NCBI RefSeq assembly: GCF_000215085.1
Contig: NC_015589.1
Location: forward strand, 3,236,120-3,300,119
DNA length: 64,000 nt
From: Desulforamulus ruminis DSM 2154
Lineage (GTDB): Bacteria > Bacillota > Desulfotomaculia > Desulfotomaculales > Desulfotomaculaceae
Direction of reading: 5' to 3'
How positions within the stretch are numbered: the stretch's first letter is position 1; each line of letters begins with the position of its first letter. Below the pieces are notes generated by a model. It did not search any database, was not told the origin of the DNA, and saw only the letters and a list, made by a program, of their open reading frames with translations. Of this stretch, positions 5,245 to 63,006 are shown piece after piece. The position numbers and the translations under genes were made by a program.

Positions 5245-6153
5245 TTATATTAGTCCTTTGCTTTGTAAAAATTCTTTTGCCACTTCTGCTTCGGACCGGC
5301 CCTCCACAGCGGTTTGATAATTTAACTGCTGCATTTCTTCATCGCTAATTTGTCCGGCCAGTTGATTTAAAACCTCTTCCAACTCCGGGTGCTTCTCCAA
5401 GGTATTCATATTAACGGTTGGCGCACAGTAGTAGGGAGGAAAGAAATTTTTATCGTCTTCCAATAAGACCAGATTATATTTGATCAATTCACCATCGGTG
5501 GCAAAGGCATTGGTCACCGAAATATTTTTATTGGCAATGGCCTGATAGCGCAAAGCAATTTCCATGGCCTGTTCCTTGGCAAAACTAATATTATAGGCTT
5601 CCTTAAGACCCTTCAACCCATCTTCCCGATTAATAAATTCCTGGTCCGTTCCAAAAATCAGCGGCTGAGAAAGCAGCGCCAAATCGGAAACTTTCTTTAA
5701 GTTATTCTCTTTGGCCGTTTCCTGACGAACCGCAATGGCATAAGTATTATTAAAACCCAAGGGTTCCAGCCATTTAATATGATGCTGCTGGTTATATTCC
5801 TTTTGCACGATTTCATAAACTTTGTCCGGATCGGTTTCAACAGGCAGGTTCAAAACAGCCATTAACCCCGTGCCGGTATAGTCGGCATATACATCCAGAT
5901 CCCCTTTTTTCAGGGCCTGGAAGCACACCAGGGTCCCTCCCAGATTCAACTTTCGTTCCACCTGCAGGTCTGTCTTGGCTTCAATTAATTGAGCCATAAG
6001 CTCTCCAAGAACGATGTTTTCATTAAAATTTTTGGAACCGACCACAATTTTATCCTTTCCCCCGGCTGTATCTGATCCGTTACCACAACCGGTGAAGGCC
6101 AGCGTTAGGATGAGTAATGATGCCAGTAAAATATAAAACTTTTTTCCTCTCAT
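5245..6153 (-). CDS. opuCC: Osmoprotectant ABC transporter substrate-binding lipoprotein (OpuCC-like)
   Basis: Lipoprotein of about 302 residues with signal LLILTLAFTGC and the lipobox Cys near residue 22. The OpuAC-type fold is indicated by VVGSKNFNENIVLGELMAQL (about 35), DVYADYTGTGL (about 106) and NNTYAIAV. Members bind quaternary ammonium compounds such as glycine betaine, choline or carnitine; specificity cannot be read here. The frame opens at 6168, but the ATG at 6153 is chosen because GAGGGAGG precedes it. It is the last gene of the ATPase-permease-permease-binding-protein operon. Confidence 0.9.
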   Translation of the reverse strand: MRGKKFYILLASLLILTLAFTGCGNGSDTAGGKDKIVVGSKNFNENIVLGELMAQLIEAKTDLQVERKLNLGGTLVCFQALKKGDLDVYADYTGTGLMAVLNLPVETDPDKVYEIVQKEYNQQHHIKWLEPLGFNNTYAIAVRQETAKENNLKKVSDLALLSQPLIFGTDQEFINREDGLKGLKEAYNISFAKEQAMEIALRYQAIANKNISVTNAFATDGELIKYNLVLLEDDKNFFPPYYCAPTVNMNTLEKHPELEEVLNQLAGQISDEEMQQLNYQTAVEGRSEAEVAKEFLQSKGLI

Positions 6154-58069: not shown

Positions 58070-58876
58070 TTATTTCACAATCCTTACCGGCTGCACTTTA
58101 CCGGAGGCGGCCCTTTTCTGCCGGTGGCGGCTCCGGGAATCGTAGGGGCAGTTGGCTTGCAGGAAAAGCTCCACAAAATCATTGGCAGGAGAAGCCGTCA
58201 GTTCCTTAAAGGTTCCCACCTGCTCCAGCCGCCCTTCCCTCATGATGGCAATGCGGTCGGCCAATTTTATTGCTTCCTGAATATCGTGGGTAACTAAGAT
58301 AATGGTTTTGCTCAGTCTTGCTTGGAGTTTCAGCAGTTCATCCTGCAGTTGATTCCGGGTGATCTGGTCAATGGCTCCAAAGGGCTCGTCCATCAGGATC
58401 ATCCGGGGATCCGCCGCTAAAGCCCTGGCCACTCCAATCCGCTGCTGCTGCCCGCCGCTCAGTTCCCCGGGATATCTTTTGAGAAGCTCCAGGGGCAATC
58501 CCACCAGTTCCAGAAGTTCCTCCGCCCGCTGCCGACATTGGCTTGGGGATCGTCCCATGATCTTCAGGACATAACCAAGATTCTTTTCAACGGTTAGGTG
58601 AGGCAGCAGACCAATCTGCTGGATAACATACCCGATGCTGCGCCTCAATTGGATCGGGTCCCATTGGGCCACTTCCCTGCCCTCTACCAGGATTCGTCCC
58701 CCGGTTTTTTCCACCAGGCGGTTCACCATTTTCAGCAGGGTGGTTTTGCCGCATCCGGAAGGCCCGATCAGCGCCAGGGTTTCCCCGGCCTGTACTTCCA
58801 GCGAAACCTCCGCCACAGCCGCCCTTCCTCCATCATATATTTTGCTAGCTTTTTCAAAGCGTAATACCGTTGCCAC
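58070..58876 (-). CDS. Osmoprotectant-type ABC transporter ATPase (no CBS domains)
   Basis: 268 residues. Walker A GPSGCGKTT (about 37), Q-loop IGYVIQQIGLLP, signature LSGGQQQRIGVARALA, Walker B MILMDEPFGAID, H-loop LVTHDIQEA. It resembles the OpuCA gene at 7447 over the ATPase core but ends where the CBS domains would begin, with a short basic tail (RSRHRQKRAASGK). It is last in a four-gene operon headed by the candidate selenoprotein. Confidence 0.92.
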   Translation of the reverse strand: MATVLRFEKASKIYDGGRAAVAEVSLEVQAGETLALIGPSGCGKTTLLKMVNRLVEKTGGRILVEGREVAQWDPIQLRRSIGYVIQQIGLLPHLTVEKNLGYVLKIMGRSPSQCRQRAEELLELVGLPLELLKRYPGELSGGQQQRIGVARALAADPRMILMDEPFGAIDQITRNQLQDELLKLQARLSKTIILVTHDIQEAIKLADRIAIMREGRLEQVGTFKELTASPANDFVELFLQANCPYDSRSRHRQKRAASGKVQPVRIVK

Positions 58877-58909: not shown

Positions 58910-59836
58910 TTATTTTAACAAACCCTTGGACTCCAGGAATTCCTTGGCCACCTGTTTGGGGTCCAGCTTTTTTTCGTCCACCTTATAATTCATTTCCGTC
59001 ATATCCTCATCGGTAATCTGCCCCTCCAGCTTTTTTAAAGCGGTTTCAATTTCCGGATGTTTTTCCAAGACATCCTTTCTCACAACCGGTGCGCAGAAAT
59101 AAGAAGGAAAATAATTTTTATCGTCCTGTAAAGTCACCATATTATAACGTTTAAGCAATCCGTCGGTGGAAAAGGCATTGATTACATCCACTTTGCCCGA
59201 GTCAATGGCCGGGTATTTCAAGGCAATGGCCATTTGTTCAGCTTTTTTAAATTGAAATCCGTAAGCCTGCACCAATCCCTCATATCCGTCTTTTCGCTCA
59301 AAGAAATCGGGCTCCGATCCAAAAACATACTGATTGGCTACCTTGCTCAGATCCGAAAAGGTTTTAAGCTGATCCTCTTGCTGCTTTTCAGCCGTCAGGG
59401 CCAGGGTAAAGGTATTATTAAACCCAAACATCGGCAGCCAAACCAGATTGTATTCTTTTAAATATTCTTCTTTTACCGCCCGGTACAGCTCTTGGGAATC
59501 CTTGGGAGTATTTCCCTTTTTCAAAACATCCAGCCATCCGGTCCCGGTATACTCGGGGTATAGATCAATTTCTCCCTTCATTAGAGCAGGATGCAGAATG
59601 GAGGTAGTGCCTCCCTCAATGGCTTTGTATTCCACCGTCAGTTTGGTGTCTTGGGCCAGCAACTGCATCATGATTTCAGCCAGGATATAGGACTCGGTAA
59701 AGGGTTTAGAGGCAACTCTTATTTTTGCTTCTCCCTCTTCCCCGCCCTTTGGGGCTTCGGTCCTGGCACAGGCTGAAAGCACCAGCAGCAAAGGCATTAT
59801 AAAAAGCAGAAGTTTTATCCAAGCCTTTTTTCTCAT
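58910..59836 (-). CDS. OpuAC-type substrate-binding lipoprotein
   Basis: 308 residues; signal LFIMPLLLVLSACAR (lipobox Cys at about 23). Core motifs RVASKPFTESYILAEIMMQL (about 41), GEIDLYPEYTGTGW (about 90) and NNTFTLALTAEKQ parallel the binding protein at 5245, though the two are clearly divergent. The ligand would normally be a quaternary amine; given the neighbouring candidate selenoprotein the ligand deserves an open mind. Follows the permease by 24 bases. Confidence 0.88.
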   Translation of the reverse strand: MRKKAWIKLLLFIMPLLLVLSACARTEAPKGGEEGEAKIRVASKPFTESYILAEIMMQLLAQDTKLTVEYKAIEGGTTSILHPALMKGEIDLYPEYTGTGWLDVLKKGNTPKDSQELYRAVKEEYLKEYNLVWLPMFGFNNTFTLALTAEKQQEDQLKTFSDLSKVANQYVFGSEPDFFERKDGYEGLVQAYGFQFKKAEQMAIALKYPAIDSGKVDVINAFSTDGLLKRYNMVTLQDDKNYFPSYFCAPVVRKDVLEKHPEIETALKKLEGQITDEDMTEMNYKVDEKKLDPKQVAKEFLESKGLLK

Positions 59837-59860: not shown

Positions 59861-60514
59861 TTAAACTACATTGCCCCGGGTCCGTTTTAGCAGTTTCTTC
59901 TCCAATAAGGCCAAAAATCCATCGGTGGTCAGGGCCAAAAGGGCCACCAATATACTCCCGGCCACCGTCAACTGCGTATTGTAAGTCATAATCCCTCTGA
60001 AAATCAAGGTTCCTAGACCGCCGGACCCGATGAAAGCGGCAATGGTTGCCACCGATATGGTCATCACCGTAACCGTCCTGAAGCCTGCGACAATAACGGG
60101 TAAAGCCAGGGGAAGCTCCACCTGGACCAACAACTGCCAATCTGTGCTTCCCATCCCCCGGGCCGCCTCAATCAGGTTCTTGTCTACCCCCAGAATGCCC
60201 ACATAAGTATTCCTTACCAAAGGAAGCAATCCATAAATAAAGAGAGCAAAAAGAGTGGGTTTTATACCGATGCCCAATAAGGGAATCATAAAGCCAAAGA
60301 GCGCCAGTACAGGAATGGTATAAAGAACCCCTGTCAGGAAAATAACCGGTTGGGCAAGCTTCCTTACACGGGTGAGCAAAATTCCCAAGGGCACACCCGC
60401 CACCGTGATAAAGAAGACCGCCACCAGGGATAGGACCACGTGTTCCAATAAAGCTTGCCCAATCAGTTCTTGGCGTTCCAGCATTAATTGTCCGACACTA
60501 ACAATAAAATTCAT
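59861..60514 (-). CDS. OpuC-type ABC transporter permease
   Basis: 217 residues, about five helices, with EAARGMGSTDWQLLVQVELP (about 118), TIPVLALFGFMIPLLGIGIK and GSGGLGTLIFRG. It is the only permease in this operon, so the channel is probably a homodimer, unlike the two-permease system at 6-8.5 kb. Starts 28 bases after the stop of the candidate selenoprotein gene. Confidence 0.92.
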   Translation of the reverse strand: MNFIVSVGQLMLERQELIGQALLEHVVLSLVAVFFITVAGVPLGILLTRVRKLAQPVIFLTGVLYTIPVLALFGFMIPLLGIGIKPTLFALFIYGLLPLVRNTYVGILGVDKNLIEAARGMGSTDWQLLVQVELPLALPVIVAGFRTVTVMTISVATIAAFIGSGGLGTLIFRGIMTYNTQLTVAGSILVALLALTTDGFLALLEKKLLKRTRGNVV

Positions 60515-60542: not shown

Positions 60543-60845
60543 CTATTGCTCCTCATGATCCAGCCGCTTTAATCCCAACCTCTCAAGATAGGCCACCAGA
60601 TCTTCCAGTCCGCTTTTTTCACTTAATTTTTGACCGTTCACCCAAATCATGATTCCCGGGATTTTCTCGTCAAACCGGTAAGAAAGCTGGACCTGTTCTC
60701 CAAAATACCATTTGATAACGCCTTCAATAAATTTATAATCATGGGACAGTTGACTTCTCCCGGAAGTGCAGCCTTCAGGGGGTCAACCGGGCTTGCCAAA
60801 CTTATTGGGCGGAATGGCGCCTATAATCTCAATGGTTGCTTGCAC
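60543..60845 (-). CDS. Candidate selenoprotein (Sec at codon 21), thioredoxin-like size
   Basis: A 100-codon frame with a single in-frame TGA (60785-60783). GTG start at 60845 with GGGAGGG eight bases upstream. Before the TGA: MQATIEIIGAIPPNKFGKPG; after it: PPEGCTSGRSQLSHDY, then FIEGVIKWYFGEQVQLSYRF, IPGIMIWVNGQKL and a Leu-rich helix ending DHEEQ and TAG. Both halves read as normal protein, with a UPPEGC redox-like motif. Starting 15 nt after the TGA, ACTTC-CGGGA-GAAGT forms a 5-bp stem and 5-nt loop with G near the loop start, about where a bacterial SECIS should be. First gene of the operon with the importer. The alternative is a nonsense-mutated gene. Family not recognised. Confidence 0.6.
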
Positions 60846-60901
60846 TATGGATCCCTCCCAAAAGATAATATTAACCAAAAACAGATACTTGATGAAAGGA
60901 C

Positions 60902-62153: not shown

Positions 62154-62600
62154 TTATTTAAATGACCCATTTACTTCTTTATTGCCTGATGTAAAATCCA
62201 TGATATATTTGCAGAACTGGGTTAAGTCGGTCAAACGATTCTGCATTAAATCATAGAGCTCTTCCGGGGTCACCTTATTGTAATCATGGATTAGTCGGTT
62301 CCGGTAGCCGGCAATTCCTGCAATATTTTGGGCAAAATCAGCGGGTAAACAGTTTGCTTCCCTTAATTTTTCTATGACAGAGCGGTAATCCACCGGCACC
62401 CCCAAGCCGGATTTAATGACCACGTGGCGGCCTAAATCAAATAATGCTTCCAATGCTCTACGCAGTCTGTTTTCCGCAATATCAATGGCGTCTTCATCAA
62501 CCCGAAATTGTTCCATCGGTGTATTTGCCAGACGTTTTAGCCGATTTACCGAGTTTGTAATAATTCCAATCCTTTCTGAAATTAAAGAGTGATTATACAT
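62154..62600 (-). CDS. hepT: HepT-like (DUF86) ribonuclease toxin
   Basis: 148 residues, all-helical HEPN-fold protein with the RX4HXY active motif in YRNRLIHDYNKVTPEELYDL (about 112). HepT toxins cleave RNA and are neutralised by AMPylation by their MntA partner. The start overlaps the end of the mntA gene by eight bases, the usual coupled layout of the type VII pair. Function as toxin is a family inference. Confidence 0.85.
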   Translation of the reverse strand: MYNHSLISERIGIITNSVNRLKRLANTPMEQFRVDEDAIDIAENRLRRALEALFDLGRHVVIKSGLGVPVDYRSVIEKLREANCLPADFAQNIAGIAGYRNRLIHDYNKVTPEELYDLMQNRLTDLTQFCKYIMDFTSGNKEVNGSFK

Positions 62601-63006
62601 CTAAATCCTCCTTTACGGTTTCATATAACTCTTTATAACCGTAATCCAAGTGATACTTAAAGTCCATATAACGTCCGGAAATTAAATATTCGTAGTCCGT
62701 TCGAAGATCGTCGTCCGACGAGTAAATAACCTTTCCTTTGCTGATAATTTCAAAAGCCAGGGCCAGGGAGGCTTTTTGCAGGAATAATAAATCCACTTCC
62801 AGAGGACCAAGTAACTCAGCCAAATCCGGATAAAGCTCCATATACAGGTTTACCGGACTCAATGGAGCATTTAGCGTCAGCACCGCTAAATCAATATCTC
62901 CGGCATGCTCTTGATCTTCAATATAAGAGCCAAACAAATATACGGCAATAATATCCGGATATTTTTTAAATATTGGGGTTAGAGATTCGCTGTTTAAATC
63001 CCTCAT
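62593..63006 (-). CDS. mntA: MntA-like nucleotidyltransferase antitoxin
   Basis: 137 residues. Minimal nucleotidyltransferase domain with VYLFGSYIEDQEHAGDIDLA (about 25-44), which holds the GS...DxD catalytic motif, here with nine residues between GS and the first Asp. In characterised pairs MntA transfers AMP to Tyr of HepT. The rest (LGPLEVDLLFLQKASLALAF) matches the family. Upstream gene of the pair. Confidence 0.85.
   Translation of the reverse strand: MRDLNSESLTPIFKKYPDIIAVYLFGSYIEDQEHAGDIDLAVLTLNAPLSPVNLYMELYPDLAELLGPLEVDLLFLQKASLALAFEIISKGKVIYSSDDDLRTDYEYLISGRYMDFKYHLDYGYKELYETVKEDLDV

Follow-up and report, generated by a model that had tools for sequence, protein, structure and literature searches.

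The window, a stretch of 64,000 nucleotides from the sulfate-reducing rumen bacterium Desulforamulus ruminis DSM 2154, contains a 100-codon frame in which codon 21 is the single in-frame TGA, followed by the three genes of an importer:

60543-60845, minus strand: candidate selenoprotein gene encoding 100 residues, from a GTG start codon to a TAG stop codon
60783-60785, minus strand: TGA codon of residue 21, the putative selenocysteine (Sec); the column is TGA throughout the 15 aligned members of the family
60753-60767, minus strand: predicted SECIS stem-loop ACUUC-CGGGA-GAAGU, from covariation and alignment
60768-60770, minus strand: conserved Cys26 codon, invariant in the alignment, proposed resolving thiol (U-x4-C)
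60853-60859, minus strand: ribosome binding site GGGAGGG, from the sequence
59861-60514, minus strand: OpuC-type permease (Pfam BPD_transp_1), 28 nt downstream of the selenoprotein gene
58910-59836, minus strand: substrate-binding lipoprotein of the importer with an OpuAC domain (Pfam OpuAC, 224 bits)
58070-58876, minus strand: importer ATPase (Pfam ABC_tran)

An earlier note on this DNA had described the frame with its GTG start, ribosome binding site and lone TGA at codon 21, a 5-bp stem with the loop CGGGA 15 nt past the TGA, and a permease gene 28 bases beyond the stop codon; all these details are correct, the permease starting with an ATG at 60514. The importer is a complete OpuAC-type system. 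Elsewhere in the window, a second OpuAC-type binding protein (5248-6150) is 44% identical to the protein encoded at 58910-59836, and a HepT-like ribonuclease and a nucleotidyltransferase, recognized with Pfam, form an MntA/HepT-type toxin-antitoxin module at 62154-63006.

Homologues of the 100-residue protein were found in 11 of 60 related genomes in a first search (the window included), each with one TGA at the aligned column; an additional TAG in one of them (G038) is the gene's own stop codon. A profile search of 113 genomes of the order, the same set that the class-level search spans, yielded matches in 34, which we sorted into four groups by reading the matched sequences. Family A, to which the window protein belongs, is present in 17 of the 113 genomes, representing 10 families, and carries a motif near G-R-P-G-U-x-P-E-G-C; subfamily B (motif A-P-[CF]-U-P-P) was found in five genomes, subfamily C (R-P-G-U-P-P) in six and the DUF1462-like subfamily D in three, with three further matches being weak. 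The homologues in the 16 other family-A genomes are 27-60% identical to the window protein, and all these genomes belong to its class. In a codon alignment of 15 family-A members, the Sec column is TGA in every sequence, and no Cys form of family A was seen among the members found. In a set of 398 genomes spanning the phylum, the sole matches from outside the order were two weak ones of the DUF1462 type, one without an internal stop (L099) and one with a TGA (L100). A pattern scan of genome contigs gave at least 118 stretches; among the 80 listed, seven were true members, all apparently from genomes of the class that had already been found, including a metagenome-assembled genome titled Deltaproteobacteria that is placed in the order of the window. 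No relatives of the family were found on plasmids, nor on viral contigs, where the pattern carried Cys, so that TGA forms would escape it. In the searches made, family A thus appears to be confined to the class of Desulfotomaculum and its relatives.

The stem ACUUC/GAAGU begins 15 nt, and its loop CGGGA 20 nt, after the TGA. The published limits for bacterial SECIS elements are a loop of 3-9 nt located 16-37 nt from the UGA, a stem of 4-16 bp and a G at loop position 1 or 2 (PMC13188914), and the stem-loop of the window falls within them. Across the 14 ungapped family-A sequences, the five stem pairs form in 94.3% of cells, compared with 31-47% when the stem is slid to control positions. Changes on both sides occur in 16 cells, whereas shuffles average 5.3; the counts include related sequences and hence are not independent events. 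Such changes are seen in four of the five pairs. The G at the second loop position is invariant, even though the codon there specifies Gly in some members and Val in others. Minimum free energy was rejected as a proof of the element on its own, being not decisive: in the isolated 45-nt segment of the window, another fold, at -10.1 kcal/mol, outcompetes the stem, and the support for the latter accordingly comes from conservation rather than energy.

The genome, a single contig of 3,969,014 bases, encodes all four components of the Sec machinery that the earlier note had proposed to look for. The selA and selB genes are adjacent (selB, 361.7 bits), a tRNA-Sec with the anticodon TCA scores 61.1 bits to Rfam, and selD (399.1 bits; L219, G000:C1:2912627-2913550) has an in-frame TGA of its own, so that SelD itself is probably a selenoprotein in D. 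ruminis. Given that selB is nearly universal in the order (110 of 113 genomes), its co-occurrence with the family has no discriminating power. The homologues with TGA, the covarying SECIS element and the complete machinery lend strong support to the selenoprotein call of the earlier note and, on the sequence evidence, the internal UGA is most likely read as selenocysteine. SelB and Sec-tRNA(Sec), steered by the stem-loop past the UGA, would insert it at residue 21.

The occurrence of the gene in only one of the nine genomes of the genus could be taken to mean that the frame is a pseudogene, or a small gene recently disrupted by a nonsense mutation, the outcome that the earlier note had named as fatal to its proposal. 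Such a reading is exceedingly improbable, considering that the TGA is kept across 10 families, that the SECIS element covaries and that purifying selection extends past the TGA. In comparisons of the window with its relatives, nonsynonymous differences per site are fewer than synonymous ones both before and after this codon; for Desulfocucumis palustris (L060), the values are 0.20 versus 0.64 before and 0.30 versus 0.77 after the TGA, although these ratios are rough, because many pairs approach saturation at synonymous sites.

None of 11 family members is recognized above cut-off by Pfam or NCBIfam (June 2026). Selenoprotein W/Rdx (PF10262) resembles family A in its small size and in a redox Sec, putative in family A, in the loop between strand 1 and helix 1, and SelW-related proteins are the best structural matches of the model described below, but its motif is CxxU rather than U-x4-C, and PF10262 did not match any of the 11 members at E values up to 10. 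The Brachyspira Sec.1/Sec.2 proteins (PF13192) are likewise small thioredoxin-like selenoproteins; their Sec is part of an N-terminal extension (CxU/UxC), and they do have homologues with Cys (PMC5330540). The corresponding profile, Thioredoxin_3, weakly matched five of the 11 members (best E 0.0032) and did not match the window protein; the best match (L057) reached 17.9 bits, below the cut-off of 24.8. SaoT and HUIPC (NF040730 and NF047660) share with family A a thioredoxin-like character and a single Sec but have a UxxC motif, and neither model matched any family-A member, NF040730 being tested to E 10. Consequently, of the suggestion in the earlier note that the protein is thioredoxin-like and of the SaoT type, the first part agrees with the predicted fold, whereas the second is unsupported, there being no NCBIfam match and the motif being U-x4-C instead of UxxC. 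Most members of subfamilies C and D, along with L099 and L100, match DUF1462 (PF07315; structure 1xg8) with E values from 5e-6 to 1e-2, whereas family A itself does not; no mention of a DUF1462 selenoprotein was found in the literature searched. A 2026 review tabulates 119 selenoprotein families, which we compared by motif and name rather than sequence by sequence, and includes no thioredoxin-like U-x4-C family, the nearest motif being UxxxxU of TsoB (PMC13188914). Family A thus most likely represents a new Sec-only family of thioredoxin-like selenoproteins, set apart from those in the table by motif and name and absent from the catalogues searched.

An AlphaFold model built from eight sequences (pLDDT 82, pTM 0.69) finds its best structural matches among SelW-related proteins (Z 7.4-8.1), followed by thioredoxins, although a Z score near 8 is only moderate and may reflect merely a common arrangement. 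Most of the better sequence profile matches are also thioredoxin-like, namely, AhpF, Thioredoxin_3, ArsE-like proteins and the DUF1462 structure 1xg8, all below cut-off. The fold is accordingly predicted to be thioredoxin/SelW-like. Sec21 and Cys26 fall in a modelled loop ahead of the first helix, the least reliable part of the model (residues 21-30 have a mean pLDDT of 65). In thioredoxin/SelW-like folds, the redox pair sits ahead of the first helix, and the placement of the two residues at this site makes a redox role the natural inference; homologues give no indication of the chemistry of this position because no Cys homologue was found. The product, a protein of 100 residues and about 11 kDa, is probably a cytosolic selenol oxidoreductase, in which Sec21 would most likely serve as the attacking selenol and Cys26 as the resolving thiol, with the enzyme presumably cycling via a Sec-Cys bond. 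Cys26 has no counterpart in subfamily B. Alternatively, Sec21 and Cys26 might bind or move a soft metal or metalloid, in the manner of ArsD, ArsE or a chaperone. For other families, a metal-binding role of selenium has been suggested (PMC13188914), ArsD appears among the Foldseek matches, and there are weak profile matches to MTH895/ArsE-like proteins (three of 11 members, best E 0.0045) and to ArsD (E 0.3). Nevertheless, these profile matches are far under the curated cut-offs and no arsenic or metal genes were seen beside the family-A loci, so we regard metal binding in place of oxidoreductase activity as unlikely.

The earlier note placed the gene at the head of the importer operon, which holds for the gene layout in D. 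ruminis but not as a conserved link. The selenoprotein and permease genes share a strand and are separated by 28 nt in which no terminator was found, and the selenoprotein gene and the importer are probably on one transcript in this species. This arrangement would suit a dedicated importer component, with the importer bringing in a compound of selenium, sulfur or arsenic, which the small protein would reduce or hand on. Compatible with this view, the selenoprotein gene is missing from the remaining eight genomes of the genus; the most similar binding proteins there, in four of these genomes, are 42-44% identical and hence no closer to this importer than the second paralogue of D. ruminis (44%). 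However, neither the permease nor the binding protein has a homologue near any of the 16 other family-A loci (two contigs being short), the neighbours of which vary by family; four other carriers encode a binding protein with 44-46% identity elsewhere in the genome; and in Desulfocucumis palustris, the closest relative, a strong terminator directly follows the gene. Moreover, the binding protein belongs to the ordinary OpuAC family and starts like an exported lipoprotein, whereas no signal peptide is apparent by inspection of the selenoprotein sequence. The linkage to the importer thus seems to be local, and the substrate proposed in the earlier note is left unsupported; a dedicated role in import is very unlikely. 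We are confident, instead, that the frame is a selenoprotein gene in which the UGA encodes Sec21 of an approximately 11-kDa cytosolic protein with a predicted thioredoxin/SelW-like fold, which forms a family of its own and is not functionally tied to the importer.

Neighbour conservation was discarded as a guide to function, there being none above the genus level. In the Desulfofundulus group, genes that read as heterodisulfide-reductase-like lie 330-430 nt downstream of the family-A gene; the two such gaps that were read showed no further TGA gene. Within the genus of the window, none of the sister loci around the upstream epimerase gene has the importer or the selenoprotein gene, and the surroundings of this locus differ, which leaves no clean empty site for comparison.

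Family A adds a selenoprotein family that is unnamed in Pfam, NCBIfam and the 2026 catalogue. Its carriers, cultured strains among them, are scattered across a class of sulfate-reducing bacteria and their relatives. Having been seen only with Sec, it can help in studying the circumstances under which Cys is no substitute for Sec. One main discovery strategy pairs Sec with Cys homologues (PMC13188914) and would pass over family A, a blind spot of methods that require a Cys homologue. Profile comparisons connect family A with subfamilies B (E 3e-18), C (3e-16) and D (4e-11). We tentatively consider, as a possibility somewhat short of an even chance, that the class harbours a superfamily of Sec-obligate thioredoxin-like proteins, comprising A, B, C and probably the DUF1462-like D, with no working Cys form surviving. 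Such a superfamily would perform a reaction that cysteine cannot, and the reliance of much selenoprotein discovery on homologues with Cys would explain why it was overlooked. Members of the thioredoxin-like sister subfamilies C (L065, L066, L067, L068, L069 and L072) and B (L057 and L061-L064) have the TGA at the equivalent place. One subfamily B copy (L062:7020-7346) has Ser at the Sec place and lies beside a TGA copy, and L061 contains further TGA-bearing copies, which are partly degraded. DUF1462-like proteins with an in-frame TGA are encoded at L070:7735-8067, L073:7914-8246, L071:7899-8240 and in L100, three of the four being near or above the PF07315 cut-off.
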